From Candidatus Hemicellulosilyticus sp. P3 (lineage in GTDB: Bacteria; Bacteroidota; Bacteroidia; Bacteroidales; P3): 64,000 bases of DNA. The stretch lies in NCBI GenBank assembly GCA_001543385.1, contig LPNH01000014.1, positions 58,457 through 122,456 on the forward strand, in the 5' to 3' direction. Positions 1,308 through 51,491 of the stretch are shown piece by piece. Below the pieces are notes generated by a model, which saw nothing but the letters and a program-made list of their open reading frames with translations, searched no databases and was not told where the DNA came from. How positions within the stretch are numbered: the stretch's first letter is position 1; the number at the start of each line of letters is the position of its first letter. A program made the position numbers and the translations under genes.

Positions 1308-2228
1308 TCAAAAAAAATTGCGGAGGATTTGCGACGCGAGGTTTTCGGTGCCGTCGCGGCCGTCGAGCCAATGGATGGCGACGCCGTGGCGCTCCATGTG
1401 GCGCAGGTAGGTCATCTGGCGCTTGGCGAAGCGGCGGATGTCGCGAAAGAGGGTGTCGTACATCTGCCCGTAGGTGCATTCACCAAGCAGGTAGGCGGTG
1501 AGGTGGCGGTATTCGAGGCCGTAGCGTTTGAGGCGGTCGGAGGGGACGCCGGCGGCAAGGAGTGAACGCACTTCGTCGACCATGCCGGACTGGAGGCGCT
1601 GCAGGAGGCGCCACTCGATGCGGCGGACGAGGATGTCGCGGGGGAAGGTGACGGCGAAGACGAGGTGGTCCATGGGGGGCATGACGACGTGGTGGCCGGG
1701 GTGGCGCAAGGCGTATTCCTGTATTTCGAGGGCACGGACGAGGCGGTCGCGGTCGTCGGTGTCGGTGTGGTTGTGGAGGGCGACGAGGGAGGAGAGGCGA
1801 CGGATGAGCTCTGCGTCGCTGAGATGGGCGACGCTGGCACGGAAGGCGGCGTCGACGGGGGCGTGGGAGAGCGGAAAGCTGCGAACAACGGCGTCGACGT
1901 AGAGGCCGCTGCCGCCGCAGAGGATGGGGAGACGGCCGGCGGAGACGACGGAACGGAAGGCGCGGAGGAAGTCGTTCTGGAACTGGTAGAGGTTGTATTC
2001 GTAGCCGGGGTCGTGGATGTCGATGAGGTGGTGGCGGACGGCAGGACCGCCTTCGGTGTATTCGGAGAGGTCTTTGCCGGTGCCGAGGTCCATGCCGCGG
2101 AAGACCTGGCGCGAGTCGGCGCTGATAATCTCACCACCGAGGGCACGGGCCAGCACGACGGCGAGCGAGGTTTTGCCGCTGGCTGTCGGACCGGTGACGG
2201 TGAGCAGGCGCTGGAGCTGGTCAGTCAA
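1308..2228 (-). CDS. miaA: tRNA dimethylallyltransferase
   Basis: MiaA transfers a dimethylallyl group to the N6 of adenosine 37 in tRNAs that read UNN codons. The N terminus has the P-loop GPTASGKT (about residues 13-20), followed by ISADSRQVFRGMDLGTGK, a MiaA substrate-binding signature. Further on are LCGGSGLYVDA and the C-terminal RRFAKRQMTYLR motif. The frame stays open upstream of the homology, but those residues are low-complexity and come from antisense to the neighbouring gene. I place the start at TTG 2228, which gives 306 residues, the usual family length. This start overlaps the stop of the PorE-like gene by eight bases, which suggests translational coupling. An alternative start cannot be excluded. 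Confidence 0.93.
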   Translation of the reverse strand: MTDQLQRLLTVTGPTASGKTSLAVVLARALGGEIISADSRQVFRGMDLGTGKDLSEYTEGGPAVRHHLIDIHDPGYEYNLYQFQNDFLRAFRSVVSAGRLPILCGGSGLYVDAVVRSFPLSHAPVDAAFRASVAHLSDAELIRRLSSLVALHNHTDTDDRDRLVRALEIQEYALRHPGHHVVMPPMDHLVFAVTFPRDILVRRIEWRLLQRLQSGMVDEVRSLLAAGVPSDRLKRYGLEYRHLTAYLLGECTYGQMYDTLFRDIRRFAKRQMTYLRHMERHGVAIHWLDGRDGTENLASQILRNFF

Positions 2229-4887
2229 GGAAGAAGAGTTTGCCGCTCTTTTTGTCGAATTCGTAGCCGCCGAAACGGGAGAGGCCGCTGCGGTTGATGG
2301 TGAATTTGTAGTCGACACCTTTGACGACGACGACTTCGACGTTGGCCAGCTTGCGCGGGCCTATCTGCATTTCTTTGAAGATGACGGTGGCTTTGTCGAG
2401 GATGTTGCCCTCGGGGTCGAAGGCGTTGTCGCGCTCGGGGAAGTCTTCTTTGTTGATACGGCGCTGGTAGAGGAGGCTCATGGCTTCTTCCCAGGCGATG
2501 GCGACGGGCTCGGGGAAACGCTCGTCGATGAGCATGGGCATGCGGGCGCCGTTGACGATGCAGGAGATTTCACCTTTGGAGGAGTGTATCATGGCGACGG
2601 GGAGCATGTTTTCGTCGTGGATGATGGCGACCTCTTCGGCGGACTCTTCAAGCGGCTTGTTGACGAGGTCGATGATTTTGCCGTCTTCGGTCTGCCGCAC
2701 GAGGGGCGTGTCGGAGCTCATGTTGTCGACGACACGGCGCGGCACGTAGTCGGTGCGGAGGATCTGGAATTCGATGCGGCGGTTGAGCTGGTGGGCCACC
2801 TCGCGGTAGTCGTCGCCAGGGAGGCGGTTGATGTAGTCGCATTCGAGGGTGGTGCCGGCGGAGAAGTTGTAGGCACGGCCGCCGCGACGGACGGTGATGT
2901 CGCGGTCGAGGGTGCGGGGCATGCGCTCGGCGTAGCCTTTGGCCACGAGACGGTCACGCTCGATGCCGCGCGAGACGAGGTAGTCGACGACGGACTGGGC
3001 CCGCCGCTGGGAGAGGGTGTCGTTGGTGAGGCCGATGAAGGGCTGGCAGTCGGTGTGGGCACGGATCTCGACGACGATGTCGGGGTTGTTCATCATGACG
3101 AGGTAGAGGTCCATGAGGGAGTCCATGAATTCTTCTTTGAGGTCCCATTTGGAGAGGTCGTAGCGTATCTCGGGCAGCACGACGGGCTGTTTGGGGACGG
3201 GCTCGATGCGCATGTCGTGGACGATGTCTTTGTCGGTGGTGTAGCCCCGGGTGCTCTCGGACTCTTCGAGGGTGAAGTAGTCGACTTTGGAGACGAAGAG
3301 TTTGTAGATGACGTCGCGACGGACCCGGTCGGTGCCGAAGCGGTAGAAGCCTTTTTTGTCGGTGTAGACCTCGCTCTCGCTGCCGTCAGAACCGACGAGG
3401 AGGATGCGGGCGCCCTCGACGAGCTGCATGGATTTTTCGTCGCGCACGATGCCTTCGATGCTGTAGCGCAAGGGGGGAAGCTCGAAGTAGAAGAGGTCGT
3501 CGTGCAGCTGGCCTATTTTTTTGCCTTTGTTGTCGATCTTGGGGTTATGGGGGTCGTCGAAGGGACGGTTGGAGGAGAAGTAGCCTCGCTCTATCATGTA
3601 GTGGGTGGAGGAGGGGTAGTAGATGATGCTCATCTCGTCGTAGGAGGAGTTGATGGGCACGCCCAGGTTTTGGGGCTTGGTGCAGCGGGTGCCGCGTATC
3701 GCGGTGCAGAAGAGGTCCTGGCCGCCGACACCGGGCAGGCCGTTGGAGGAGAAGTAGAGGAGGGTGTCGTCGCGCAGCACGGGGAAGACTTCGCGGCCGG
3801 CGGTGTTGACGACGCTGCCGAGGTTGACGGGCTTGCCGAAGTCGTCGGCCTGCGACGGACGGGTGGCCACCCAGAGGTCGTAGTCGCCGGAGCCACCGGG
3901 CATGTCGGAGGAGAAGTAGAGGGTGAGCCCGTCGCTGGTGACGGCAGGATAGAGGTAGTTGTAGGCGGTGTCGCCCAGCTCGATGCGCACGGCGGGCTCC
4001 CACTCGGCGGAGGGAGCGTCGCTGTCGGATCTGCCTTTTTTCTTGCTTTTGCGGTCTTTGGCATCGGCGGCGGATTTGCTGGTGACGTAGATGTAGCAGC
4101 CCTGGGTCTGGTTGCGGCGGGCGTCGCAACGCGAGAAGTAGACGGTACGGCCGTCGGGGGAGAAGCAGGCTTCGCCTTCGTTGGCGGGGCTGTTGATGCG
4201 GCCGTCTTTCTCGAAGCGCTCGGGGGTGGCGGACCAGTTGCCTTTGCGGTCGCGGAAGACGTGGTAGAGGTCGGAGAAGGCCTGGCCGGTCCAGGCGTCG
4301 ATGGCGGCGTCGGCCTCGTCGTCGATGCGCGAGGAGGTGAAGACGAGACGGTTGGTGTCGGCACCCATGAAACGCGGCGCCCAGTCATTGTATTCGGTGT
4401 TCCAGCTGTCGAGGCGTTTCATGACGTGGCGGGTGCGGTTGGCGAAGAGCTCGCCGACGTAGGCCAGCGAGTTGAGACGCGAGACGGCATATTTGTCGTT
4501 GGGAGCGATCTCGATGTAGCGCTTGTAGCTCTCTTCGGCTTCTTCGAGCTTGTTTTCGAAGCGGTACATCTCGGCGAGGTAGAAGTATATTTTCGGCTCG
4601 GTGGTGTAGAATTTGCTGCCGACGAGCTGCCGGTAGATGTGCTCCGCCTTGGGGAAGTTGTTCATCAGGCGGTAGCATTCGGCCATCTGGAAGTAAAGGC
4701 GGTTTTTCTCTATCTTGTTGCCTTTGATGCTACCGTAGGCCTCTTCGTATTTTGCAAGGGCGGCTATGTATTGCTTTTGGTCGAACAGTGCGTCCGCTTT
4801 TTGGGCAAGGGACTTTGACTGGGCCAGCGCCGCGGCCGCCAAAGTGACCATGAGGAGCAGGACAATGCCTTTCTTAGCCGTTTTCAT
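2221..4887 (-). CDS. PorE-like TPR/PD40/OmpA outer-membrane protein with a retropepsin-like tail
   Basis: An 888-residue exported protein with signal peptide MKTAKKGIVLLLMVTLAAAA. TPR-like repeats occupy about residues 28-150. PD40/WD40-type beta-propeller repeats follow (about 165-450) with recurring FSPDGRTVYFSR-, DGLTLYFSSD- and YFSSNG-type motifs. Next comes a carboxypeptidase-regulatory-like segment (about 475-560), then an OmpA peptidoglycan-binding domain (about 575-720) with VEIRAHTDCQ and LSQRRAQSVVDYLVSRGI. This is the architecture of PorE, a type IX secretion component that ties the machine to peptidoglycan, although related proteins occur without that system. After OmpA there are about 165 extra residues. 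The last 120 look like a retropepsin-fold domain (NGARMPMLIDERF, then IGPRKLANVEVVVV and a closing RSGLSRFGGYEFD) with the catalytic DTGA altered to DERF. The function in this organism is inferred. Confidence 0.85.
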   Translation of the reverse strand: MKTAKKGIVLLLMVTLAAAALAQSKSLAQKADALFDQKQYIAALAKYEEAYGSIKGNKIEKNRLYFQMAECYRLMNNFPKAEHIYRQLVGSKFYTTEPKIYFYLAEMYRFENKLEEAEESYKRYIEIAPNDKYAVSRLNSLAYVGELFANRTRHVMKRLDSWNTEYNDWAPRFMGADTNRLVFTSSRIDDEADAAIDAWTGQAFSDLYHVFRDRKGNWSATPERFEKDGRINSPANEGEACFSPDGRTVYFSRCDARRNQTQGCYIYVTSKSAADAKDRKSKKKGRSDSDAPSAEWEPAVRIELGDTAYNYLYPAVTSDGLTLYFSSDMPGGSGDYDLWVATRPSQADDFGKPVNLGSVVNTAGREVFPVLRDDTLLYFSSNGLPGVGGQDLFCTAIRGTRCTKPQNLGVPINSSYDEMSIIYYPSSTHYMIERGYFSSNRPFDDPHNPKIDNKGKKIGQLHDDLFYFELPPLRYSIEGIVRDEKSMQLVEGARILLVGSDGSESEVYTDKKGFYRFGTDRVRRDVIYKLFVSKVDYFTLEESESTRGYTTDKDIVHDMRIEPVPKQPVVLPEIRYDLSKWDLKEEFMDSLMDLYLVMMNNPDIVVEIRAHTDCQPFIGLTNDTLSQRRAQSVVDYLVSRGIERDRLVAKGYAERMPRTLDRDITVRRGGRAYNFSAGTTLECDYINRLPGDDYREVAHQLNRRIEFQILRTDYVPRRVVDNMSSDTPLVRQTEDGKIIDLVNKPLEESAEEVAIIHDENMLPVAMIHSSKGEISCIVNGARMPMLIDERFPEPVAIAWEEAMSLLYQRRINKEDFPERDNAFDPEGNILDKATVIFKEMQIGPRKLANVEVVVVKGVDYKFTINRSGLSRFGGYEFDKKSGKLFFLD

Positions 4888-4980
4888 ATTGTCAGTTTGT
4901 GTTGATCTGTTTCTTATTTATATAAATGTCAAACAGTTGCAGCACTTTTACGGTTTAAAGCGATGCACTGAAAGGACTTG

Positions 4981-4988
4981 CTAAGATA
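4981..4988 (-). promoter_or_regulatory. Probable promoter for the PorE-like gene
   Basis: The minus strand reads TATCTTAG, one mismatch from TAnnTTTG. A TTTG about 20 bases upstream fits the -33 element. It lies about 95 bases before the ATG at 4887. Confidence 0.4.
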
Positions 4989-5018
4989 CATATATTTTTC
5001 CGAATGAGCAAATCAGGC

Positions 5019-5777
5019 TCAGAGGGGGGATCGATGCAGGAAGGGGTAGTCGATGCCGAAAACCTGCCTGACGGTGGCAGGGGTGAGGCCGTCGTGCATG
5101 GGGCCCTGGTAATGGATGCGGCGGTTGTGGAGGAGGAGGAGCGAGGGGCAGTAGCGGTAGGCAAGGTTGAGGTCGTGCATGACGATGAGGATGGTTTTAC
5201 GCCGGCTGCGGTTGATGTCGCTCAGCAGCTCCATGATTTCGAACTGGTGGGCTATGTCCAGATTGGAGGTGGGCTCGTCGAAGAGCATGACGGGGGTGTC
5301 CTGGGCCAGGGCACGGGCTATCATGACTCGCTGCCACTCGCCGCCGCTCATCTCGTGGGGCTTGGAGAGACGGTGCTCCCAGGTGTGGGTGAGGCGCATG
5401 CAGCGCTCGACGATGGCCCAGTCGCGCCGAGACTCGTTTTGCAGCCGGCGCTGGTAGGGGTTGCGGCCCATCAGCACTGTCTCGAAGGCGGAGAACTCGA
5501 AGTCGGTGTGGCTGTGCTGGCGCACCATGGAGATTTGCCGGGCCAGCTGCCGTGTGGTGTAGCGGCGGATGTCGGTGCCGCCGACGAGGACGGCGCCACG
5601 CTGCGGCTGCAGGAGGTTGCCGATGCAGCGCAGCAGGGTGGTCTTGCCGCATCCGTTGAGGCCCATGAGGGCGTACATGCCGCCCTGCTCGATGTCGGCG
5701 CAGATGTCGCTGAGGACCTGCTTTGTGCCGAAGGCGCAGTCAAGGTGTTGTATGGATATCATGGGGGAGGCTGTCAT
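5019..5777 (-). CDS. ABC transporter ATPase, FecE/BtuD type
   Basis: A 252-residue cytoplasmic ATPase that would power uptake of an iron-siderophore, haem or cobalamin together with the permease encoded just upstream. Visible motifs are Walker A GLNGCGKTTL (about residues 38-47), a Q-loop region around MVRQHSHTD, ABC signature MSGGEWQRV, Walker B VMLFDEPTSNLD and switch histidine VMHDLNLAY. The start at 5777 is chosen because its ATG overlaps the permease TGA as ATGA, and the frame upstream is only antisense to other genes. A second ATG at 5762 is possible. Substrate specificity cannot be read from the ATPase, and no periplasmic binding protein or TonB receptor gene lies beside it. Confidence 0.92.
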   Translation of the reverse strand: MTASPMISIQHLDCAFGTKQVLSDICADIEQGGMYALMGLNGCGKTTLLRCIGNLLQPQRGAVLVGGTDIRRYTTRQLARQISMVRQHSHTDFEFSAFETVLMGRNPYQRRLQNESRRDWAIVERCMRLTHTWEHRLSKPHEMSGGEWQRVMIARALAQDTPVMLFDEPTSNLDIAHQFEIMELLSDINRSRRKTILIVMHDLNLAYRYCPSLLLLHNRRIHYQGPMHDGLTPATVRQVFGIDYPFLHRSPL

Positions 5778-38907: not shown

Positions 38908-39263
38908 ATGACAGATAGAAACATCTGTCTTTACAATTTTCCCGTCAAGGGCATTCTCCCATGAGGCAAGCCCCATGTGCTCCTGCTCTGCATCAGCCCT
39001 TTCCACTATTAACTCTGGGCAGTCCGTCCATGCACGGCGTAGTGCATCTTGTTCTGCATCATCTTAAAGGATACCCCACGCTTATAACGGCATCAAGGTT
39101 GTAGAACTGCAAGGTTCTGTTGACCATTCTGTCCCCTTCTTGACGAACTACCGAGATTTTCTCGGCAGTTGCTCCTTCTTGCAGTTCACCGCTTTCATAA
39201 ATATTCTTTAGGTGAAGCCCACTGTTGTCTGACGAACAGTCAAATAGCATACCCATTGCTTTC
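38908..39263 (-). pseudogene. RhuM-family protein remnant
   Basis: Two separate frames on the minus strand match different parts of RhuM virulence-associated proteins. The first (39263 down to about 39065) reads AMGMLFDCSSDNSGLHLKNI and later QFYNLDAVISVGY, the conserved N-terminal RhuM segment, then hits a stop after three alien residues. The second, in another frame (about 39050 down to 38913), reads PELIVERADAEQEHMGL then DGKIVKTDVSI, a segment from much further along RhuM. So the middle has been deleted and the C terminus is gone. Its N terminus is joined to a Nudix fragment. It is clearly decayed. Confidence 0.7.
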
Positions 39264-39387
39264 CGAGTTCCATCTTCCCACCCGGGAATTCCCACCAGTC
39301 TTTCCATTCACCATCCCCCCGCTGCGTAGCGAAGATATGCCCTTTGTCATCATGGATGATGGCTGCTACTACCTCTATTTGTTTCAT
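39208..39387 (-). pseudogene. Truncated Nudix (MutT-like) hydrolase gene
   Basis: The ATG at 39387 lies three bases after the helicase stop, as expected for the next gene of the operon. The first 42 residues (starting MKQIEVVAAIIHDDKGHIFA and reaching EFPGGKMELG) are the start of a MutT-type nucleotide pyrophosphohydrolase, up to the beginning of the Nudix box. From about 39265 the DNA switches to a RhuM remnant and the frame ends at TAA 39208-39210. The catalytic REUxEE part of the Nudix box is missing, so the product cannot be active. Nudix genes beside or fused to DUF3427 helicases are a known arrangement. Confidence 0.75.
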
Positions 39388-39390
39388 ATC

Positions 39391-42300
39391 TTATGCGATT
39401 TCTTTTATCCTTGCAAAATGCATCACACTTCCTGGAATCGGTTCTACCATATTCCAGCGAATCCGCATCTGCATACGTGTACCTAAATTCTTATACTCCC
39501 ACGAACTTAACGTGACGCGGCCTAAATAGACATAGCCCAAGGTGCGTGATTTGTCCTCCACGAAGTTTTTCTGTTCGCGGACAAATAGCAACATCGTCTG
39601 TGCCTGTTTGATATACGCCTGTCCTTCCTTGGATTCTGGCTTCACGCGATTCTGTGCATCCCATTGGAATAGATACGGTGAAAGGGCCTTATCATCATAG
39701 TCTGTTGTAGAACCCTCTTCACGATTCTTGATAATGTCCACAAACATCGCTTCTACACGCAGGCCTTTGTTTCGCTCCACGCCTTCTCGTGCCGATGATT
39801 TGCGTGTCAGCGTTGACGTACCTATGGCTACTTGTATCTGCGCCTTTGTATATACACCATGTAACTTCAACGGGAAGTCTGGCAACAGGGAATTATCAGC
39901 CTTTTCGTATGCCTTGTTTTCCTGAAGCAATAAGGGTAGCACCTCCTTCAGTTCTGCACAAAAGATGGTATCATTCGACAATTCGTCAACCATTTGCTGA
40001 AGGCTACCAAATCGGCCGGCATTTTCAAACATATCATAATAGAACATCAACAATCGTTTTTGGTCAATGGCACTCATTTCGTTCACCTTCACATTAAATG
40101 ACTGCCCAGCCAACCTCTCAACGAAACTCAGATATGAATATGCGTCTGTAGCTAACCATTTGCGGAACACAGCACGACTCAACTCATCGTTGTATGCGGA
40201 TTGATTCTCCCTTAGACCTGCCTCAAAGAGCAGTTGATTCCAGGTCCTGCCTTTATATAGCTTATCCAGTGGCAATTGGTATATCCTGACAAAATTGGCA
40301 AGAGTAAGCGGTGCAGAGTGATGCCTTTCGAAGTTCTGCACCAATGCCATGACCTTACGAGCCGTGAAACGCAGAATGGCTCCTCTGATATTGCTCATAA
40401 TGTACTCTTTTGCTTTGGGTTCCAGAATAATCCGGCATCCAAGTGGCAGATGAGGACAGTCACGCTCCATTTCCTCTACTACACTCATCGAGGTTCGACC
40501 TAACATCACACGCATACGATCGGCATAATTGAACTCAACCCGGCTATTACCTACGAAGTCCAGAATATCCACATGTGTTTTTCCCTCGGCTTTACGCAAA
40601 CCTCGGCCAAACTGCTGGATAAATACTGTAAGACTCTCCGTAGGACGAAGGAAGAGGATGGTGTCAATTTCTGGTATATCTACGCCCTCGTTGAACATAT
40701 CCACGACAAACAGGTAGTTGATGTCCTTTCGCTTCAGCCGGTTGTACAACGCCGTTCGCATCTGATCGTTCTCGCTGATCAGCACATCGGCCTTCAGTCC
40801 ACACAACGTGAATTTCGAAGCCATGTACTTGGCATGTTGTTGGTCTACACAGAAACACAAAGCCCTGACATCACGGATGTTGGTCAAGTACCGCTGGAGC
40901 GCTTGCAGGATGACAGCCGTGCGAGCATCGTTGTAGCTATAGATGCGCGAAAGTTCAGATGCTACGTAGTGTCCCTTATCCCATGCGACTTCTGAATAAT
41001 CTACCGAGTCAGTAATGCCATAGTAGTAGAATGGAGCCAACAATCCCTTGTTCAATGCATCATCCAGGCGAATCTCGGCAGATATGGTTCCGTCAAAGTC
41101 TTGGGTTATATCCTCGCCGTCCATACGTTCTGGCGTAGCCGTCAGGCCTAACAGCACCTTTGGTGCAAAATAATCGAGAATTTTACGATAAGATGATGCC
41201 GCAACGTGGTGAACCTCATCAACGACAATGTAATCGTAGTAGTCGGCTGGTAAATGTAAAGTTTCTAAGCGATTGTTGAGCGTATCTTTTGAGGCAAACA
41301 CAAATTCATAGTTGGCCGGTTCTTCGCCACCATACCATTTCTCACCAAAGTTATAATCGGAGAGCACCTGACGGAATGTGAGAAGGCTTTGACGGAGAAT
41401 CTCTTCACGATGGGCCACGAATAGCAGGTGAGCACGCTCGTGTTTCTCTGCAAATGCCTTATAATCGCTGGCAGCCATGACTGTCTTTCCTGTTCCTGTT
41501 GCGGCCACGACCAAGTTGCGCCAATGTCCCCGCACTTCACGCTCGACATGAAGTCGTTCTAAGATTTCCTGCTGATAGTCAAAAGGGCGTATCAGCCCTT
41601 TGAGATTTGTGAAATCAATCTCGTTGTCAACCTTACCGTTAAGGGCAGTTTTCAGCCGCTCGTTATCCTCACCATCCACAAATGTTTCATAGCCTTCGGC
41701 CCACCACGAGGCATCGAAAGCGCCCATGATGGTTTTCATCATCTGCGGCTGCTCCATCTGCGTCACCTTCACGTTCCATTCAGCGCCTGTATCAAGAGCT
41801 TGCTCTGAGATATTCGACGAACCTATATATGCTGTGTTGAAACCCGTGTTACGCAGGAAAATGTATGCTTTTGCATGCAGACGCTCGGAGGTAGTGTCGT
41901 AGGTAATCTTGATTTCTGTGTTCCTTAAAGACGCTAACTGAGTAACAGCCTCGTAATCTGTGGCTTGCATATATGTGGTGGTGATTACCTTCAGTTGTCC
42001 ACCTCTATGGGTGAACTCTTTCAACTGGGGCAATATAAGAGCGAGGCCACGTTTTTTGATGAACGACACCATTAGTCTGATTTCATCTGCCGAGGCTATT
42101 TCCTTTTGCAGCTCGGTGTACATCTTCATTCCCTTGCCCGTGAACAAAAACCCATTTACCAGGCCTTTTAAGGGCATCATCTCCTTCAGCCGTTTTGCCA
42201 GATCGGGATAATCAGCCTGTGTCTTATCGATAACTGCTGTCAGAATTTTAGCTTGGGCGGACACCAAATTGCCCGAATCCAAATGAAACTCATTGACCAA

Positions 42301-42558
42301 TTTCCTGATGATGGCATTAGCTAAGTCCAGGCCCTTCTTAACGGAATGCTCTGTCTGCTCCTCTTCCTCGCCATCATCCGCATCAATCACATCCGAAAGA
42401 ACCTGTTCAAAGATACTTGTCAAGTACATTGATAGCAGTTTCGCAACCTCATCTTTCTTGATAACCCGCTCTCCAACATAAAATCGATTCTGGTCAATCG
42501 AAGAGATTTTCTCTTCAAACAACTGATTGATTATTTGTTCGTATATTCCTGTCTTCAT
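39391..42558 (-). CDS. PLD-nuclease-like/DEAH helicase with DUF3427
   Basis: A large (about 1055-residue) protein. An N-terminal helical part (about 1-130) precedes a phospholipase-D-like domain (about 130-270) with the HxK motif in LHAKAYIFLRN and GSSNISEQAL. Superfamily II helicase motors follow: Walker A VVAATGTGKTVMA (about 358-370), DEVHH (about 445), GLTATPERMDGED, then the C-terminal lobe with FNEGVDIPEIDTILFLRPT and QQFGRGLRKAEGK. The last 350 residues fit DUF3427. This is the layout of nuclease-helicase proteins of defence islands. It starts 12 bases after the RecQ-UvrD fusion stop and is followed by a truncated Nudix gene, so the three were one operon. ATG 42558 is preferred to a TTG two codons earlier. 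Confidence 0.88.
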   Translation of the reverse strand: MKTGIYEQIINQLFEEKISSIDQNRFYVGERVIKKDEVAKLLSMYLTSIFEQVLSDVIDADDGEEEEQTEHSVKKGLDLANAIIRKLVNEFHLDSGNLVSAQAKILTAVIDKTQADYPDLAKRLKEMMPLKGLVNGFLFTGKGMKMYTELQKEIASADEIRLMVSFIKKRGLALILPQLKEFTHRGGQLKVITTTYMQATDYEAVTQLASLRNTEIKITYDTTSERLHAKAYIFLRNTGFNTAYIGSSNISEQALDTGAEWNVKVTQMEQPQMMKTIMGAFDASWWAEGYETFVDGEDNERLKTALNGKVDNEIDFTNLKGLIRPFDYQQEILERLHVEREVRGHWRNLVVAATGTGKTVMAASDYKAFAEKHERAHLLFVAHREEILRQSLLTFRQVLSDYNFGEKWYGGEEPANYEFVFASKDTLNNRLETLHLPADYYDYIVVDEVHHVAASSYRKILDYFAPKVLLGLTATPERMDGEDITQDFDGTISAEIRLDDALNKGLLAPFYYYGITDSVDYSEVAWDKGHYVASELSRIYSYNDARTAVILQALQRYLTNIRDVRALCFCVDQQHAKYMASKFTLCGLKADVLISENDQMRTALYNRLKRKDINYLFVVDMFNEGVDIPEIDTILFLRPTESLTVFIQQFGRGLRKAEGKTHVDILDFVGNSRVEFNYADRMRVMLGRTSMSVVEEMERDCPHLPLGCRIILEPKAKEYIMSNIRGAILRFTARKVMALVQNFERHHSAPLTLANFVRIYQLPLDKLYKGRTWNQLLFEAGLRENQSAYNDELSRAVFRKWLATDAYSYLSFVERLAGQSFNVKVNEMSAIDQKRLLMFYYDMFENAGRFGSLQQMVDELSNDTIFCAELKEVLPLLLQENKAYEKADNSLLPDFPLKLHGVYTKAQIQVAIGTSTLTRKSSAREGVERNKGLRVEAMFVDIIKNREEGSTTDYDDKALSPYLFQWDAQNRVKPESKEGQAYIKQAQTMLLFVREQKNFVEDKSRTLGYVYLGRVTLSSWEYKNLGTRMQMRIRWNMVEPIPGSVMHFARIKEIA

Positions 42559-42570
42559 ATGCAAAAAACA

Positions 42571-45500
42571 TTAGCGGTTATCACCTTCCACCTTTGACAA
42601 ATCAATATTAGCCAAGCAGACAGCGTACTCTATTTGAGAGTTCATAGGCCTCCAAGCCAATGTAAAACTAACCTTCGCACCCGCAACAGCATAGCCCTTG
42701 TCGGTCCACGCCTTCAATTTTTCCTTCCCTGCTGCTGACAATGCTGCAATGCTGACATCTTGTTTATTGAGTAAATAGCCGTCTTGATAATGCAAACTGT
42801 CACCGCTCCTGAGCTGTAGTACAATCTTCTTGCGGACTTTGAAGAAATCAAGGATGACATCATGCATGTTCAAGGCGATTGAAATGGCAGCATAGTCAGC
42901 AGGCGGTTCTGTGACGAGATAGAGATTCTTCTTGGCGCGTGTCAATCCTACGTAATAGGCCCGCATATCGTTTATGTCCCGACCATCGGGAACGGGTGAT
43001 AGCAGATAGACCGTATCAAACTCACGGCCTTTAGCTTTATGTATAGTGCTAACAAACACCGAGTGTTCGTCAGCTGCGATAAAATCTTCAATATTCGACT
43101 CAAAAATGTATTCACGCAGGTCGCTATGATAATAGGCATGGTGTGTGACTTCAAAGTCGGCAAAAAAATGCTTCATGATACTCAAGCACGTGCTTGTGGC
43201 GTATGCTTCAAGTGTGCGTTGCTTAGCCTCTTGCCATCGTTCGGTGGAAATGATGGCTTCCTCTTTGTTCCCGAGTTGCTTAAGGAAATATCTTACTTCT
43301 GCCAGATTGCCGAAGCGGAAACCGCCCATTGATTGGGCAACTGTAGCATGCAGTCCACGACGCTCCAATTCGTAAGCAAACTGCATGGTCTCTTCGTTGG
43401 TGCGGGTCAAGATGGCTGTACTACCTTGGGTACTTATCTCTGCATCAATGAGTGATTTCAATGTAACGACCTTACCTTCCTCGCCTATGGCAGATTGGAG
43501 AGACGTATGTTTCAAACGACCGGGTATGCGTTGTACAAAACGGTTGGCGCACCTCACGACGGCATGATCAGAACGATAGTTGTCGGTCATCTCATACAAC
43601 TTGGCACCCTCTTCGCTGACAAGCGACTGCATGTAACGGGAGTCGGAACCACGGAAAGCATAGATGTTCTGGTCGTCGTCGCCCACAGCGATGACACGCA
43701 TCTCCTCGTTTTGTCGCATCAGGGCCTGCACCAATCGAAAGTCATCTTTCCCCATATCCTGTGCTTCGTCGATGACCAATACGCTCTTGGCTATCTTCGA
43801 TGGTTCCACCTCGCCACGTTCTATCATTTCCGCCGCACGCTGCACCACGTCTTTTGCTTCGTCCAAACTTCCTTGTTTGCCAATGAGGTCGAAACTATAG
43901 GAATGGAATGTCTTGATATCTACATAATGAGCAGCATTGCCCACCAGGTCGATGAGACGCTTCTTGAATTCGGTTGCTGCAGCCCGCGAAAAAGTGAGCA
44001 TCAACAACTGTTCATGCTTAACATCTTCCAACAGCAACAGCGAGGCTAACTTATGCACCAGTACCCGCGTCTTACCGCTCCCCGGTCCTGCCGCCACCAC
44101 GATGTATTTCGAATGATTGTCATCAATAATATCAAGTTGGCGGTGGGATAGTTCGCCAAAGAGTTGGTTGTATTTGGCAGGTGTGATGTTTTGGTCAATC
44201 TGTGCCCGTCGTTCTTCTTTGAAGTAGTCATTGATAAACTTGCGGAAGTCCATCGTGAAGTAGTCGTTGACGAACTGAAGGGCCGTGTTGTAGTCGCGCA
44301 CCATCAGATTTGCATATTCTCCAACGATATGTATCTGGCGAATGCGCTGTTTGTAGAACTCATCCAACAGTCGGTATTGCTCCTTGCCATAACGTGTTCG
44401 ACGGTCGGCCAAACGTCCTATCTGCATGGTGTTGTAGATGACGATGAATCCACCTTCAATCTTCATCAGCTCCATTTTGGTGAGATAGAGCAAGGCTTCT
44501 TCGATGTCGGCAATCGTAGGCTTCTCTTTTTCTTGATTTTCAAATATCGTAGCCTGTTTAGTAGCGATAAACTGTTGCAGCAGTTCCACCTCCGAGAAGT
44601 TGACTATTGTCATTTCCTTGCTATTGTCTCGTTTGGCACTCAGCGTCTCCACTATATACCGGCAGATGTCCGTACGCCTTTCAAAACGGGTATTTGCTGC
44701 TTCTATAGAGTCTTGTAAACGTACGCTCACACTGCCAATTGATCCGTGCTCCTGCTTGTGGATATAGCCTTTCAGCGATAGGAAATGAAGCAGCATCCTC
44801 AGGCGCTTGACATTCGAATAGGTCAAATTTGCCTTCTGCGCTTCTTCATTCAACTCCTTATAGTTGATTCTATGCGACTGTTGCCCGATTCGCCGCAATA
44901 GGTATTGCTCCAGTTTCAGTACGATGTCAAGATTACGCAAAGAGGTGCCTTTGCTGACCCAGGCCTGCATGTCATGACTGTCGGACAGCAGTCCGTCCTG
45001 TCGCATCAGGTTGATATTCCTGATGACGTTCGCCTTGCTCATGCCAAGAATATCTGCCAGATAGTCCACTCGGCTTTCTGCTTCCGCTCCACGTCCTTCC
45101 GCTGTGGCACGTGCACTGATGAGCGACTTGATGATGCGGGCAGCCTCCTCACGCGACTGTTCGTCGAAGAGTGGCGAGACGGTCAATTTCCGTCGGGCCT
45201 CATCCATATTCTTCACCGTTATGCCAGTTGCAAAGATGTGTGGCGAGTTGCTCCCTCGCTGAATAAATCCTGCATCTTCAAGTGCAGCAATGGCGGCCTT
45301 CACACGTGTTTCGATATCGTCTATCTCGTCTCCCCATCCAGCTTGTCTAGCAATGTCCAATGGCGAGCAACTCACTTTGTCACGCTTGGCCGTCAGGTCT
45401 TTAATGGCTTTCCACACCTGTTGGATCTCGCTAATGCTGAGTTTGGTCTGGTTGAGCAGGATGAAGTGTTTGTCCAGGTCGCTATCGGCATAGAGCACAT

Positions 45501-47283
45501 AACATTCGGCCCGCATCTGCGGGTCACGTCCTGCACGCCCGGCCTCCTGCACATAATTCTCCAACGAGTCGCTGATATTATAGTGAACCACCAATCCTAC
45601 ATCTTTCTTGTCAACACCCATTCCGAAGGCAGAAGTGGCCACGATGACCTGTGCCTCACCACTCATAAAGGCGTTCTGATTTTTTACCTTCTCGGCAGCT
45701 TCCATCTTGCCGTTAAATGGCAATGCCCGTATGCCGTCACTGAATAGATGTTCTGCTAGTTGCCTGGTACGTCTGGTTCGAGATACATAAACTATCGTCG
45801 GACAATTGTGTCCAAGTATCAGCGAACGTAACAGATTGTATTTCTCGTCTGCAGTATCAGCATGGAGCACCGAATAGCGCAGATTCTTGCGCTCGGCATT
45901 GGCCGCAAAGACCTTTAACTCCAACCCTAACTTTACCCTAAAGTAGTCGCAGATATCGCTGATAACCTTCTGCTTAGCGGTTGCCGTAAAACACGAGATG
46001 GCAATGGGCTTGTCCTGTTGTTTCTTTTCCTGCAACTGCTTGATGAAATCACCAATATACAAATAGTCCACACGGAAATCATGTCCCCATGCAGAGAAGC
46101 AGTGGGCTTCGTCAATCACAAAGCGCACCACATTCCTGCCTAAAAGCAGTCGTTCAATGGTTTTCGAACGCAACATCTCTGGGGCGATATATAGCAGATT
46201 TGCCGTACCATCTGCCACCTGCTGAATGGCGGTGGCTCGCTCTATGGGGTCAAGCAGTCCGTTGATAGTCACTGCCTCGCTGATTCCACGGGCAGCGAGA
46301 TTGTCCACCTGGTCTTTCATCAACGACTGTAATGGCGTGATGACCACCGTCAGTCCTTGTGTATTCCGACCAACCATCAACGCTGGCAACTGGAAGGTAA
46401 GGCTCTTGCCTCCACCAGTGGGGAATATCGTCAGCAGCGATTCTCCCCGAATGGCCGACTCCACCGCCTGTTGCTGCATGGGAACACCATCAAACAGACG
46501 GAATTCATCATAACCAAAGAATTCTTTCAGTCCATAGTGGGCATCCAACCGCTGACGGCAGTATTCGCAATCGCCACACGATGTGTTGCACAGCAGGTTC
46601 ATCACGTTGACTACCTGCGGATAGTTGCGTATCACCCAAGCGGGTGTGATAGAAAAGATATCGTCGGCACCAATCACAGCTAAGCAATAAGCCAACTCTA
46701 TGGGGTATTGCTTGACAAGCACCTCTAAATCTGCATTGCTGCACACCTTCTTCTTAAATTCCTTTGAAATAAGTTTCAACCAATCCGGTTGAGTGTTCAG
46801 AATTTTTCCAATAAATGATTGCGAAGAAGTAGGAACATATCGAATGTATTTGAAAAAACTTTCAAACTCAGTTGTATGATGAAGCAGCTGGTAGTAGATT
46901 TCCTGTCTATCTATAGTTAACTCGTTCCATGCCGCAATTTCATCATTCAGCAAGTCACGGGCTTTTATCGAATCATTCACAGGGTTGTTCAACTCATCCA
47001 CTTGCAATTTGTCGTCCTTCACCAAATGATGATATGGACGCTTAGGGAAGAGTAACGGCGACAAGAATAACGTATCGATAATCGCGGGTTTGCCACTCAA
47101 TGCCGTATACTTCAGGTCATGGTTGATAATATTGTGCCCACACACCGTGTCACATCTTGATACAAAGTCATCAAAAACTGCCTTGGAGTGAGTGTGCATC
47201 ACAGCTCCATCCTCCCTTAGCGCTCCATAATCCGCAACCTTCTTCGTCTTCGGATTCACCTCTGTATCAATGAATACTATCAT
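42571..47283 (-). CDS. DEDD exonuclease-RecQ-UvrD fusion protein
   Basis: A 1570-residue protein with three catalytic modules. Residues about 1-170 resemble a DEDD 3'-5' exonuclease: FIDTEVNP, then CGHNIINHDLKY, and a third acidic/His motif near NDSIKARDLL. Residues about 260-600 are a RecQ-type helicase with FPTGGGKSLTFQL, DEAHCFSAWGHDFR, FTATAK and FGMGVDKKDVGLVVHYN, followed by QEAGRAGRD. A wing-helix-rich middle follows. From about 1045 a UvrD/Rep helicase starts: VAAGPGSGKTRVLVHK (about 1060-1075), VIDEAQDMG (about 1172), GDDDQNIYAFRGSDS and STIHKAKGREFDTVYL (about 1413). So two opposed helicase families and an exonuclease lie on one chain. An Xre gene precedes it and the PLD helicase follows. 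The start is the ATG at 47283; no consensus promoter is visible directly ahead. Confidence 0.9.
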   Translation of the reverse strand: MIVFIDTEVNPKTKKVADYGALREDGAVMHTHSKAVFDDFVSRCDTVCGHNIINHDLKYTALSGKPAIIDTLFLSPLLFPKRPYHHLVKDDKLQVDELNNPVNDSIKARDLLNDEIAAWNELTIDRQEIYYQLLHHTTEFESFFKYIRYVPTSSQSFIGKILNTQPDWLKLISKEFKKKVCSNADLEVLVKQYPIELAYCLAVIGADDIFSITPAWVIRNYPQVVNVMNLLCNTSCGDCEYCRQRLDAHYGLKEFFGYDEFRLFDGVPMQQQAVESAIRGESLLTIFPTGGGKSLTFQLPALMVGRNTQGLTVVITPLQSLMKDQVDNLAARGISEAVTINGLLDPIERATAIQQVADGTANLLYIAPEMLRSKTIERLLLGRNVVRFVIDEAHCFSAWGHDFRVDYLYIGDFIKQLQEKKQQDKPIAISCFTATAKQKVISDICDYFRVKLGLELKVFAANAERKNLRYSVLHADTADEKYNLLRSLILGHNCPTIVYVSRTRRTRQLAEHLFSDGIRALPFNGKMEAAEKVKNQNAFMSGEAQVIVATSAFGMGVDKKDVGLVVHYNISDSLENYVQEAGRAGRDPQMRAECYVLYADSDLDKHFILLNQTKLSISEIQQVWKAIKDLTAKRDKVSCSPLDIARQAGWGDEIDDIETRVKAAIAALEDAGFIQRGSNSPHIFATGITVKNMDEARRKLTVSPLFDEQSREEAARIIKSLISARATAEGRGAEAESRVDYLADILGMSKANVIRNINLMRQDGLLSDSHDMQAWVSKGTSLRNLDIVLKLEQYLLRRIGQQSHRINYKELNEEAQKANLTYSNVKRLRMLLHFLSLKGYIHKQEHGSIGSVSVRLQDSIEAANTRFERRTDICRYIVETLSAKRDNSKEMTIVNFSEVELLQQFIATKQATIFENQEKEKPTIADIEEALLYLTKMELMKIEGGFIVIYNTMQIGRLADRRTRYGKEQYRLLDEFYKQRIRQIHIVGEYANLMVRDYNTALQFVNDYFTMDFRKFINDYFKEERRAQIDQNITPAKYNQLFGELSHRQLDIIDDNHSKYIVVAAGPGSGKTRVLVHKLASLLLLEDVKHEQLLMLTFSRAAATEFKKRLIDLVGNAAHYVDIKTFHSYSFDLIGKQGSLDEAKDVVQRAAEMIERGEVEPSKIAKSVLVIDEAQDMGKDDFRLVQALMRQNEEMRVIAVGDDDQNIYAFRGSDSRYMQSLVSEEGAKLYEMTDNYRSDHAVVRCANRFVQRIPGRLKHTSLQSAIGEEGKVVTLKSLIDAEISTQGSTAILTRTNEETMQFAYELERRGLHATVAQSMGGFRFGNLAEVRYFLKQLGNKEEAIISTERWQEAKQRTLEAYATSTCLSIMKHFFADFEVTHHAYYHSDLREYIFESNIEDFIAADEHSVFVSTIHKAKGREFDTVYLLSPVPDGRDINDMRAYYVGLTRAKKNLYLVTEPPADYAAISIALNMHDVILDFFKVRKKIVLQLRSGDSLHYQDGYLLNKQDVSIAALSAAGKEKLKAWTDKGYAVAGAKVSFTLAWRPMNSQIEYAVCLANIDLSKVEGDNR

Positions 47284-47423
47284 TCAATGTCCCTTTATTA
47301 TCATATTTGTCATCCGTTCTTGATATATAGCCACTGAACCTAAATGCCACATTCTTGTGGATTTATCTTCTAAACGCCTATACATGTCTGAAGAATATAC
47401 CCTCTTGACGGTTTGAACAATGT

Positions 47424-47654
47424 TTACTTTGATTCCTGTGACAAGAGATATTGCTTATATTCTCTCACAAGCAGTTCTTTTATATCCACCTCTAACAGAT
47501 CGGATATTTTCAGCAGACTGGCGACATCGGGCTGAGAAGTATTAGTGCACCACTTGCTGACAGTTGAAGGAGTGACACCCATTTCACCTGCCAACCATCG
47601 AGCCGTTTTCTTCTTCTCGAACAACACCATCTTAATTCTGTTGATATCTTCCAT
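47424..47654 (-). CDS. Small Xre-family transcriptional regulator
   Basis: A 76-residue DNA-binding protein consisting of one helix-turn-helix: KKKTARWLAGEMGVTPSTVSKWC followed by QPDVASLLKISDLLEVD. It lies 140 bases upstream of the exonuclease-RecQ-UvrD gene on the same strand and has a consensus promoter just ahead. That is the usual place for a controller that represses or times a defence operon. No enzymatic domain. The link to the operon is inferred from position. Confidence 0.85.
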   Translation of the reverse strand: MEDINRIKMVLFEKKKTARWLAGEMGVTPSTVSKWCTNTSQPDVASLLKISDLLEVDIKELLVREYKQYLLSQESK

Positions 47655-47674
47655 CTATTCGAATTTTGATGGTA

Positions 47675-47682
47675 CAAAGGTA
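47675..47682 (-). promoter_or_regulatory. Promoter for the Xre-helicase operon
   Basis: The minus strand reads TACCTTTG, an exact consensus match about 20 bases before the Xre ATG. This gives a very short leader and is the only clear promoter for the whole leftward operon. Confidence 0.7.
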
Positions 47683-47793: not shown

Positions 47794-47894
47794 ATAAAGT
47801 GACATTTCGTCGCTTTAAGAGTGGGCTGAAAATCAACGATTTACAAAAGTGCGATTTTCTCTGAATATCAAAAATACAACTAACTGAAACAAAA

Positions 47895-48218: not shown

Positions 48219-48440
48219 ATGACGCAGCAAGAAATTGGAAATGCCATCAAAGAAAGAAGAAAGAAACTCGGCATCAACCAACAGACGTTGGCTGATTTGG
48301 CGAGTGTGGCTGTAAACACCGTTGTAGCAATTGAACGTGGCGAAGGTAATCCGCAGTTGACAACCTTGCTGACAATTCTCGACACGTTAGGGCTTCAAAT
48401 GGATGTTAATATCAAGCAATTGGACTATGAGACAATGTAA
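48219..48440 (+). CDS. hipB: HipB-like antitoxin regulator (module 1)
   Basis: A 73-residue Xre-type DNA-binding protein. The helix-turn-helix is LGINQQTLADLASVAVNTVVAIERGEGNPQL, followed by a dimerisation tail (TILDTLGLQMDVNI). In HipBA and HipBST systems HipB represses its own operon and helps neutralise the kinase. The ATG follows an operator-like site directly. Its 3' end overlaps the hipS-like ATG by 14 bases, typical of coupled toxin-antitoxin genes. Confidence 0.88.
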   Translation: MTQQEIGNAIKERRKKLGINQQTLADLASVAVNTVVAIERGEGNPQLTTLLTILDTLGLQMDVNIKQLDYETM

Positions 48441-48735
48441 GGTTTACGTTCATGATTTAGAAGCCGGCATACTTCAGGAAACCGATGCCAGGGAATATGT
48501 GTTCACCTATGATGAGAATTATAAAGGTGAACCAGTATGTTTGTCCATGCCAGTACGGACAGAGCCTTATCGTTCTGCACATCTTTTCCCGTATTTCTTT
48601 AATATGCTCTCTGAGGGTGAAAACCGTCAGATGCAATCACTGCTGCTACATATCGATGAAAGCGATGATTTTGGCATTATGTTAGCAACAGCCCAGCATG
48701 ATACTATTGGAGCAGTAACCGTAAAACCGATTTGA
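48427..48735 (+). CDS. hipS: HipS-like small protein (HipA N-subdomain, module 1)
   Basis: A 102-residue protein equal to the N-terminal subdomain of HipA (RQCKVYVHDLEAGILQETDA, then LSMPVRTEPY and FPYFFNMLSEG). In one-chain HipA this region is fused to the kinase. Here it is a separate gene, as in E. coli HipBST, where HipS acts as the antitoxin. The TGA is two bases before the kinase ATG. It is assigned by order and homology; whether it neutralises the kinase is not shown. Confidence 0.82.
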   Translation: MRQCKVYVHDLEAGILQETDAREYVFTYDENYKGEPVCLSMPVRTEPYRSAHLFPYFFNMLSEGENRQMQSLLLHIDESDDFGIMLATAQHDTIGAVTVKPI

Positions 48736-48737
48736 AA

Positions 48738-49745
48738 ATGATAGAACTTTGCGTTTGCCCATCTACCTTGCAGGAAGGTTTTACCACCTATTCCCCTGCA
48801 GCCCGAAAACTATTGTTTGACGGGAAGGAGATTTTTCATGTGTTGGATTTTGACAGTCCCAACAATGAAAGTGCCGACAATGAAGCCTATCTGAAGAATG
48901 TAGGACGAATCTCGCTTTCTGGCGTACAACCCAAAGCGAGTTTGGTCTTGAACACTGAAAACAAGTTGATGAAGCCTGCCGAAGGTGAACGAGGTACATA
49001 TATTTTGAAGCCGGCGCCATCATCATATGCCTTGCTTGACCGCAAGTATTGTCCTGCCAATGAACATCTGACCATGCAGTTGGCTTCTCAGGTCTATCAA
49101 ATCGAAACGGCTGCCAACTCTATCTGTTTTTTCCGTGATGGCGAAGCCGCCTACCTGTGCCGACGTTTTGACGTGGGTCCTGATGGACAAAAGTATAGTC
49201 AGGAAGATTTCGCCTCGCTGGCAGGATTGACCAATGCCAACGGTGGTAGTGATTTCAAGTATAGCAATCTGAGTTATGAGGAATGTGCAGACATCATCCG
49301 CAAGTATGTTAAGGCTGCACCCGTAGAAATTCTGAAGTTTTTCCGTATCATCGTGTTCAACTACCTCACCCTCAATGATGATGCCCACATGAAGAACTTC
49401 TCGCTCATCAACCGTGGTGACGGAGAATATCATCTTGCTCCAGCATACGACCTCATAAACACCAGTCTCCACTTGAGTGTGCCACGCATTTTCGCCCTTG
49501 ACAAAGGTTTGTTCAAAGAGGGAATGAAGTTATCTGATACAAGAACTGTTGGCCGTAAGGACTTTGAGGAGTTTGGACATCGCATAGGTTTGCCTGAACG
49601 ATTGATAAAACGAGAAATGGATTTCTTTGCTACGGAGCATCCATTGGCAAAGGAACTTGTTGATCATTCCTTCCTGTCCGACTCCTTGAAACGAAGTTAC
49701 TGGCTTTCGTACAGCTATCGACGTGTGACGTTGGGATTTAAATGA
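48738..49745 (+). CDS. hipT: HipT-like serine/threonine kinase toxin (module 1)
   Basis: A kinase of about 335 residues with the HipA C-terminal fold. The Gly-rich loop GRISLSGVQPKASL carries Ser59 and Ser61, matching the SxS autophosphorylation loop of HipT. TYILKP supplies the ATP-binding Lys, LNDDAHMKNFSL (about residue 212) the catalytic Asp and Asn, and LAPAYDLINT the metal Asp. Bacterial HipA kinases phosphorylate aminoacyl-tRNA synthetases (GltX, TrpS). The N terminus MIELCVCPSTLQEG keeps two Cys of the zinc-knuckle seen in module 2, but the HxxC half has become YSPAARK. ATG 48738 is used rather than an in-frame TTG six bases earlier. Confidence 0.88.
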   Translation: MIELCVCPSTLQEGFTTYSPAARKLLFDGKEIFHVLDFDSPNNESADNEAYLKNVGRISLSGVQPKASLVLNTENKLMKPAEGERGTYILKPAPSSYALLDRKYCPANEHLTMQLASQVYQIETAANSICFFRDGEAAYLCRRFDVGPDGQKYSQEDFASLAGLTNANGGSDFKYSNLSYEECADIIRKYVKAAPVEILKFFRIIVFNYLTLNDDAHMKNFSLINRGDGEYHLAPAYDLINTSLHLSVPRIFALDKGLFKEGMKLSDTRTVGRKDFEEFGHRIGLPERLIKREMDFFATEHPLAKELVDHSFLSDSLKRSYWLSYSYRRVTLGFK

Positions 49746-49923: not shown

Positions 49924-49988
49924 TTGGCACAATCTGGCAAAAAAGTTGAGATTACGCCAGTTTATAGGGTTATTATTTGGCGCAATCT
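49924..49988 (+). repeat. TTGGCrCAATCT repeat cluster before the ATPase gene
   Basis: TTGGCACAATCT (49924-49935) and TTGGCGCAATCT (49977-49988) are direct copies. A near-inverted copy, AGATTACGCCAG, lies between them (about 49949-49960). The second copy abuts the promoter of the ATPase gene, so these may be regulator-binding sites. Confidence 0.45.
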
Positions 49989-49999
49989 AATATTTTTAT

Positions 50000-50007
50000 T
50001 AACTTTG
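50000..50007 (+). promoter_or_regulatory. Promoter for the AAA ATPase gene
   Basis: TAACTTTG, an exact consensus match, with TTTG at 49976-49979 as a possible -33. It lies 24 bases before the ATG at 50031. Confidence 0.65.
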
Positions 50008-50030
50008 CGTCAAAATATAAATGCAGTGAG

Positions 50031-51491
50031 ATGGAAAAATCTATTGTAGGTCGTGAAAAAGAGATAATGGAGCTGAAGAAATATCTTTCTTCGGAACAGT
50101 CGGAGTTTATAGCTATCTATGGAAGACGACGTGTTGGTAAGACATATCTTATTAAAGAGCTTTTGGAGGGGCAATTCTGTTTTAGAATGACGGGTAAGGA
50201 AAATGCTCGTCTTGGAGAGCAGTTGCTGAATTTCTCGTATGCATTATCGGATTATTTTGATGATAACCGTGTGCCTCAGAATTGGACAGAGGCGTTTCGC
50301 ATGCTCTCTAAAAATATTGAGAAGCAAGGGGGTGGCGCAAAAATCATCTTCATTGACGAACTTCCATGGCTTGACACGCAGAAATCCAGATTCCTTGGGG
50401 CATTGGAACATTTCTGGAACAACTGGGCATACTATCGGAAGGATATAAAGCTAATCGTCTGTGGTTCTGCCACCTCATGGATGCTGAACAAACTGATTAA
50501 CTCCAGGGGAGGGCTACATAACCATGTGACTCACAAAATGTTGATTTCTCCATTCTGTTTGGAAGAAATGGAGCAATATTTTCGGAGCAGAGGCTTCAAC
50601 TATGAGCGCCCGGAAATGATAGACTGCTACATGGCTGTGGGTGGTGTTGCCTATTATTTATCATTGTTTGACAAGGACAAAAGCGTGGCAGAGAATATCA
50701 ACAGCTTATGTTTTACTAATGGTGGAGCGTTGACAGATGAGTTTAACCGGCTCTATGACTCGCTATTCAAAAAGGCAGAGCATCATATTGCTGTTATAAA
50801 TGCGCTCAGCAGCGCCCGGAAAGGAATGACGCGCCTTGAGTTAATTAACAAGACAAGACTGCTAAATAATGGTAATTTCACCACGTTGCTCAAAGAATTG
50901 GAAACATGTGAATTCATACATTCATACTACCCATTCGGCAAAGAGAAGAAGAACAAAATGTTTCAACTCACAGACCAATTTTCTCTCTTCTATCTTCACT
51001 TTATGAAGGATAAGAGTAATGTCGGAAAGAACTACTGGCTCCAGAAGATGGGTACACCCGAATATGCAGCATGGTCCGGCTATTCTTTCGAGACTGTATG
51101 CCTGCATCACATCGAACAAATCGTCAACGCTTTGGGCATCAGTGGAACATTCCATTCGCCATGTTCATGGGCTTATCGTCCATCGGAAGCAGTTCTTAAT
51201 GATGTAGATGCAGACGAAGACATGAAGACTGGCGCTCAGATTGATTTGCTTATTGATAGAAATGATAAGACCGTAAGCGTATGTGAAATGAAATATGCAA
51301 GTGGAGAATACGAGATAACAAAAACCTATGCCAGCCATGTAGAGCAAAGGCTCCGTACATTTAGGAAGGTGACATCCACCAAGAAATCCTTTTCAATAGT
51401 TTATGTAACACCTTTCGGTCTTCATAATAATATGTACGCAAGGAAAGTCAATAAACAGATAATAGCAGATGATCTATTCAGAAAAGTGTGA
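50031..51491 (+). CDS. AAA ATPase with C-terminal nuclease-like (DUF234) domain
   Basis: A 486-residue protein of the archaeal-type ATPase family frequent in Bacteroidota. Walker A is GRRRVGKT (residues 31-38), Walker B IIFIDELPWLD (about 107). A sensor region has CGSATSWMLNKLI. A winged helix (about 255-320) follows, then a C-terminal DUF234 region with GAQIDLLIDRNDKTVSVCEMKYA (about 400-422), which has the D-ExK pattern of PD-(D/E)xK nucleases. Function of the family is unknown; roles in element maintenance or toxicity have been suggested. ATG 50031 is chosen because it follows a consensus promoter. It lies between two hipBST-like modules. Confidence 0.88.
   Translation: MEKSIVGREKEIMELKKYLSSEQSEFIAIYGRRRVGKTYLIKELLEGQFCFRMTGKENARLGEQLLNFSYALSDYFDDNRVPQNWTEAFRMLSKNIEKQGGGAKIIFIDELPWLDTQKSRFLGALEHFWNNWAYYRKDIKLIVCGSATSWMLNKLINSRGGLHNHVTHKMLISPFCLEEMEQYFRSRGFNYERPEMIDCYMAVGGVAYYLSLFDKDKSVAENINSLCFTNGGALTDEFNRLYDSLFKKAEHHIAVINALSSARKGMTRLELINKTRLLNNGNFTTLLKELETCEFIHSYYPFGKEKKNKMFQLTDQFSLFYLHFMKDKSNVGKNYWLQKMGTPEYAAWSGYSFETVCLHHIEQIVNALGISGTFHSPCSWAYRPSEAVLNDVDADEDMKTGAQIDLLIDRNDKTVSVCEMKYASGEYEITKTYASHVEQRLRTFRKVTSTKKSFSIVYVTPFGLHNNMYARKVNKQIIADDLFRKV

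Follow-up and report, generated by a model that had tools for sequence, protein, structure and literature searches.

SauUSI, the closest described relative of the gene studied here, is a type IV restriction enzyme in which a PLD nuclease, a superfamily 2 (SF2) motor, a linker region and an SRA-fold reader follow one another, and the two bases it attacks in DNA are 5-methylcytosine (5mC) and 5-hydroxymethylcytosine (5hmC). Hydrolases of the NudG/Orf135 type and the B. fragilis protein Q5LBB1 are Nudix enzymes with Asp in place of Asn119 of MutT, while RecQ-family helicases, DinG (DEDD exonuclease plus helicase) and human WRN (exonuclease plus RecQ) place a DEDD-fold exonuclease ahead of a helicase motor. 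Genes resembling all three lie side by side in Candidatus Hemicellulosilyticus sp. P3 (order Bacteroidales), in a stretch of 64,000 nucleotides that we call the window (contig LPNH01000014.1, positions 58,457 to 122,456 of the forward strand). An earlier note on this DNA had proposed one undescribed defence operon of four genes, i.e. an Xre regulator, an exonuclease-RecQ-UvrD (exo-RecQ-UvrD) fusion, a PLD nuclease-helicase and a truncated Nudix gene. All the genes lie on the minus strand where that note had placed them. The reading that we favour, with some reserve, is that the window carries a type IV restriction module with a nucleotide-pool arm, consisting here of an intact nuclease and a broken Nudix gene, with a separate helicase-nuclease upstream. 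The features of the module are as follows.

39391..42564, minus strand: SauUSI-like type IV restriction enzyme, 1057 residues, an unbroken frame of 1057 codons with PLDc_2, ResIII/Helicase_C and DUF3427
41695..42135, minus strand: PLD nuclease domain, about residues 144-290, with H230, K232 and N251 (PF13091, E 3e-11)
39394..39900, minus strand: SRA-fold target-recognition domain, residues 889-1057 (predicted fold)
39260..39387, minus strand: truncated Nudix gene, about the first 43 residues (PF00293, E 2e-6)
39059..39307, minus strand: frame with a RhuM-family remnant (PF13310 positions 1-36, E 4e-7, 29.9 bits against a cut-off of 33.7)

By its sequence and predicted fold the third gene is a SauUSI-like type IV restriction enzyme, a kind already known. 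Its product matches the PADLOC model mREase_IV PDLC03659 (type IV methyl-directed restriction) with 660 bits over residues 144-1050 and the structure 7clg with E 5.6e-77 over 139-678, and it contains an SF2 helicase-like motor (PF04851, E 4e-40). The HxK...GSSN motif is present, with H230, K232 and N251 invariant in seven aligned sequences including that of the window. The domains stand in the same order as in SauUSI; the predicted SRA fold of the reader is closest to that of SauUSI, whose base-flip pocket residues F841, I842, D858 and W868 align to F941, V942, D958 and W968. The two proteins differ in that a single-sequence search aligns only about half the length of the window protein, which also has an N-terminal extension of about 110 residues. 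The enzyme probably shreds invading DNA with methylated or hydroxymethylated cytosine. It is the only SauUSI-like match at E 1e-60 in its own genome (G000), and viral contigs gave only two SauUSI-like matches, both distant.

A Nudix gene is a recurrent partner of this enzyme. An alignment of seven sequences was run against 84,980 species genomes, and the best 80 of 440 relatives were taken as a sample of close relatives. Reading frames in these were assigned mechanically (short genes and start sites are approximate), and the frames around the SauUSI-like genes were searched with a Nudix profile obtained after two rounds. Seven of the 80 loci break off too close to the gene to be judged. In 31 of the 73 testable loci a Nudix gene is the immediate neighbour on the same strand, within 60 bases: upstream in 24, 16 of them with a 4-base overlap, and downstream in seven, 1-17 bases after the SauUSI-like gene. 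The count is 31 instead of 32 because an eighth downstream neighbour, in locus L155, is an isopentenyl-diphosphate isomerase. One intact pair is that of Winogradskyella wichelsiae (L080). At other positions within eight frames only 5 of 846 were Nudix, two of which (L076 and L153) lie one small frame further downstream. When the nucleases are clustered at 70% identity the pair occurs in 10 of 24 clusters, upstream in six and downstream in four.

In a quick tree with long branches, the window protein groups with those of L078, L121, L076 and L077, all with an intact downstream Nudix gene (after one small frame in L076; the nuclease frame is broken or short in L078 and L121). In the second large clade of Bacteroidota any Nudix gene that is present lies upstream. 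In a more distant group of SauUSI-like genes the Nudix gene is upstream at both places seen, namely L075 and the second of two SauUSI-like genes in genome G517, whose first has none. L075, in genome G031, holds the only close relative of that second G517 protein that a search of the order found; its SauUSI-like protein (1832-5317, minus strand, 1161 residues) ends in a stretch that resembles an S24 (LexA-like) peptidase, just below the Pfam cut-off. Since the pairing is found in two arrangements and in different clades, common inheritance alone is a hard explanation for it. The window remnant belongs to the same picture: the gene starting at 39387, seen as Nudix by the earlier note, keeps a Nudix reading over about 43 residues and is 79% identical over positions 1-42 to the Nudix protein downstream of the relative in L078. 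The frame is then lost before the domain is complete and enters remnants of a RhuM-family gene, which overlap its end in another frame and which the earlier note had not mentioned, so a pure Nudix remnant was rejected.

Several counts weigh against a general rule. An immediately adjacent Nudix gene is lacking in 42 of the 73 testable loci (L076 and L153 being one small frame off), including each of the 17 that could be tested in the clade with proteobacterial loci, and the copy in the window itself is broken. Among six plasmid records with a SauUSI-like gene, hand-picked from 40 listed rows, the Nudix gene adjoins in one, upstream, in Hymenobacter canadensis (L250). The pair, judged from sequence, is new here, recurrent and chemically matched; many relatives of the window protein have the Nudix partner, and we found neither such a partner in papers on SauUSI nor any paper describing the pair within the open-licence literature. 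The cleaning of the nucleotide pool that the earlier note had attributed to its operon is thus better founded than it was then for the SauUSI-like gene, and it does not extend to the helicase gene, beside which no immediate Nudix neighbour was found in 41 tabulated loci.

The host genomes were compared as well, since C5-methyltransferases would be expected to be rare in the hosts of an enzyme that cuts 5mC DNA. Such genes seem to be rarer in genomes with a SauUSI-like gene, more weakly so in a second set. Within the order, 1 of 9 genomes with the gene has a PF00145 match, against 17 of 25 without it (Fisher p 0.006), or 2 of 10 against 17 of 25 (p 0.02) if G016, whose match covers the motor only, is kept. 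The second set, 20 isolates or assemblies hand-chosen from the 80 loci against 22 controls of untyped SauUSI status, gave 3/20 and 11/22. A stratified test over both sets gave p 0.001 with everything included, 0.009 without six controls picked from helicase-positive genomes and 0.004 when G016 was left out too. On the other side, without these six controls the second set alone falls to 3/20 against 6/16 (p 0.15), two of the nine positive genomes of the order are incomplete (G011 at 61%, G157 at 83%) and G000 itself has one truncated PF00145 match. For genomes at least 90% complete on both sides the figures are 1/7 and 16/22 (p 0.01).

Upstream of the SauUSI-like gene lie these features.

47675..47682, minus strand: promoter-like -7 box TACCTTTG of the Bacteroidota type (motif search)
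47424..47654, minus strand: Xre/Cro-C1 type helix-turn-helix (HTH) regulator, 76 residues (HTH_3, E 8e-9)
42571..47283, minus strand: DEDD exonuclease - RecQ helicase - UvrD helicase protein, 1570 residues, a single unbroken frame of 1570 codons
46546..47283, minus strand: DEDD-fold exonuclease domain and helical linker (residues 1-246 folded)
45445..46530, minus strand: RecQ-family motor, residues 252-613 (TIGR00614, 277.6 bits, cut-off 219.8)
42904..44166, minus strand: UvrD-family motor, about residues 1040-1460 (PF00580, E 1.7e-31; PF13361, E 1e-20)

The fusion of an exonuclease with two helicase superfamilies in one protein, read by the earlier note from the letters, is borne out by the Pfam motors, by the DnaQ-like fold predicted for the N-terminal domain and by the acidic residues D6, E8, D56 and D104, present in 40 of 40 aligned sequences including that of the window. 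The exonuclease domain has no Pfam match even at E 1. In DEDDh exonucleases the usual motif III residue is His, five residues ahead of the last Asp; here it is replaced by Asn (36/40) or Ser (4/40). The protein differs in this respect from the RecQ helicases, DinG and WRN, and also in the second, UvrD-type motor after the first and in a score below the RecQ equivalog cut-off (312.5 against 640.2 bits), the broader RecQ-family cut-off being passed. The PADLOC model of GajB (Gabija) matches only the UvrD half and that of DpdF (Dpd) only the RecQ half; no Gabija or Dpd partner genes were found among the 7-8 window proteins scanned, and none of seven matched GajA.

The Xre gene, the exo-RecQ-UvrD gene and the SauUSI-like gene probably form one transcription unit here. 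The box TACCTTTG starts at 47682 and matches the Bacteroidota -7 consensus. No other TANNTTTG lies closer on the upstream side of the Xre gene, the next one being at 47876; the motif has a density of 0.3 per kb on this strand, and a motif search found none in the 140-base gap between the Xre and helicase genes. The listed TTG start of the SauUSI-like gene leaves 6 bases after the helicase gene, and the likely ATG two codons on leaves 12, the spacing that the earlier note had counted.

We give even chances to the explanation that the two units are unrelated defence genes, brought side by side in an island and each working alone. We examined 77 exo-RecQ-UvrD loci, 68 of them with at least 400 bases downstream, and in the surrounding DNA examined a SauUSI-like gene accompanies the helicase gene in three: the window, L089 (a Hydrotalea metagenome-assembled genome, found via the nuclease) and G517. 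Direct adjacency is seen only in the first two, which also weighs against a pairing of the helicase gene with the nuclease, while in G517 the two share a type IV island. Of 295 genomes in the order, 23 have the helicase gene and 11 the SauUSI-like gene; 2, among them that of the window, have both, against 0.86 expected. The close SauUSI-like relatives L076, L077 and L121 show no helicase gene over roughly 10 kb on their upstream side (L078 shows only 205 bases), and L184 and L189 have the exo-RecQ-UvrD gene behind an HTH homologue 76% and 53% identical to that of the window and no nuclease gene. What speaks for a link is the tight spacing on the same strand, 12 bases here and 39 in L089, together with the shared island of G517. 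The conserved four-gene operon of the earlier note was rejected on these counts, the set being conserved neither across genomes nor across loci, an outcome that the note itself had listed as refuting; a regular partnership of the helicase gene with the nuclease was rejected too, given two genomes against 0.86 by chance. The G517 island (L244/L245, contig 17, 158000-190063) is a dense type IV restriction island with two different SauUSI-like genes, GmrSD and an AAA_5 plus McrBC-family pair, and it also holds a Nudix gene, NADAR and PRTase-CE domain genes and HipN/HipA-like genes.

An alternative hypothesis for the recurrent Nudix gene could be that it serves ordinary housekeeping or mutation avoidance, cleaning 8-oxo-dGTP or nucleoside triphosphates in general, and was carried along with the restriction gene; we consider this unlikely. 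The family models do not decide the type: none of ten scanned proteins (L155 included) passes the cut-off of the NudG model NF007834 (pyrimidine (deoxy)nucleoside triphosphate diphosphatase; best 103.5 against 156 bits), two, both from Firmicutes, pass that of MutT, and the two models score alike in the ten, which counts against a firm NudG assignment. MutT Asn119 contacts 8-oxoguanine. In an alignment of 36 rows (the 31 paired proteins, L076, L153, and L070, L072 and L075 from the survey of the order; 35 distinct proteins, L070 and L107 being the same gene) the position holds Asp in 36/36, as in NudG, and the Nudix-box Arg and Glu residues are kept in 36/36. The paired proteins thus share the Asp with the NudG/Orf135-type hydrolases and Q5LBB1, from which the window copy differs in being truncated. 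Two other full-length NudG-like genes elsewhere in G000, which has a single SauUSI-like match, favour the housekeeping explanation; they carry the same Asp, which is therefore a mark of the subfamily, not of the pairing. The two arrangements in several clades speak against a passenger gene, as does the best solved relative. For three tested paired proteins the best PDB match was 3gwy, i.e. Q5LBB1, which prefers 5-substituted (d)CTP, with kcat/Km values of 6.7e6 for 5-Me-CTP, 4.8e6 for 5-Me-dCTP and 4.4e6 per molar per second for 5-MeOH-dCTP (PMC5158307). The bases of the latter two triphosphates are those against which SauUSI is directed when they occur in DNA. We know of no substrate measurement for a SauUSI-linked Nudix member. 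Elsewhere in the genome of the window (L224, 3510-4529, minus strand) a NudG-like domain is fused to a further domain, presumably GAF-like, and overlaps a gene at 4367-4873 (minus strand) that looks Vsr-like, i.e. like a mismatch endonuclease gene; this overlap is possibly another link to 5mC.

The exo-RecQ-UvrD gene is scattered in the order (23 of 295 genomes, own included), and a sample of a different class gave no further locus. PADLOC families, counted as families and not as proteins, number 108 around the chromosomal genes and 5 in the controls, for which one region of the same contig was chosen by hand per genome. This surplus makes it doubtful that the protein repairs or maintains mobile elements instead of acting as an immune effector, in spite of the gene's presence in eight plasmid records in which a single place reaches at least 80% coverage, beside ParA and ParB genes in Aliarcobacter and on IMG/VR contigs. 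The reading of the earlier note is thus supported in part: a defence role, as it had supposed, is likely from the PADLOC type IV match, the predicted SRA fold and these neighbourhoods, though not as one conserved four-gene operon. The exo-RecQ-UvrD protein represents a large helicase-nuclease family of defence islands that is named in no title or abstract found in the open-licence literature; the third gene is of a named kind. No common partner was found among ten scanned neighbours of the gene. It lies directly downstream of GmrSD in L176 and, on the viral contig L190, beside a frame that resembles a C5 methyltransferase. HipA-like genes are found near it in L064 (G222) as well as in the G517 island, and in the window a HipB/HipN/HipA-like toxin-antitoxin operon (48219-49745, plus strand) lies divergently beside the Xre gene. 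It is followed by an ATPase_2-family protein (49977-51491, plus strand) that matches the PADLOC candidate family PDC-S27 over its full length with 634.6 bits.

For the restriction module with a nucleotide-pool arm we propose the following mechanism. The SRA domain would read C5-modified cytosine, 5mC and probably 5hmC, and the SF2 motor would travel on the DNA, which the PLD domain would cut to pieces. In many relatives the enzyme is co-encoded with a NudG-like Nudix protein that may hydrolyse 5-substituted dCTP. Such a hydrolase could deprive a phage of its modified dCTP, and it could also stop recycled 5-methyl-dCMP from re-entering host DNA, where the nuclease would target it. The Xre and exo-RecQ-UvrD genes would be a separate gene set of the defence island that here probably shares the transcription unit; their helicase-nuclease may unwind and trim the ends made by restriction, or process invading DNA alone.

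We tentatively extend this to the family, as a conjecture somewhat short of even odds: SauUSI-like enzymes would commonly be the DNA arm, and a dedicated Nudix enzyme the nucleotide arm, of an immunity to 5-methyl- and 5-hydroxymethylcytosine, a single mark that the pair would recognise both in DNA and among the triphosphates. Such an immunity would starve modifying phages and spare the host self-restriction by recycled nucleotides, with the DEDD-RecQ-UvrD protein finishing the degradation in some lineages. If the pairing is functional, the restriction of modified DNA would have a nucleotide-metabolism arm of the same chemical specificity. This would explain how a host that destroys 5mC and 5hmC DNA escapes poisoning by recycled modified nucleotides, and it suggests a route by which hydroxymethylating phages may be blocked before their DNA is made.

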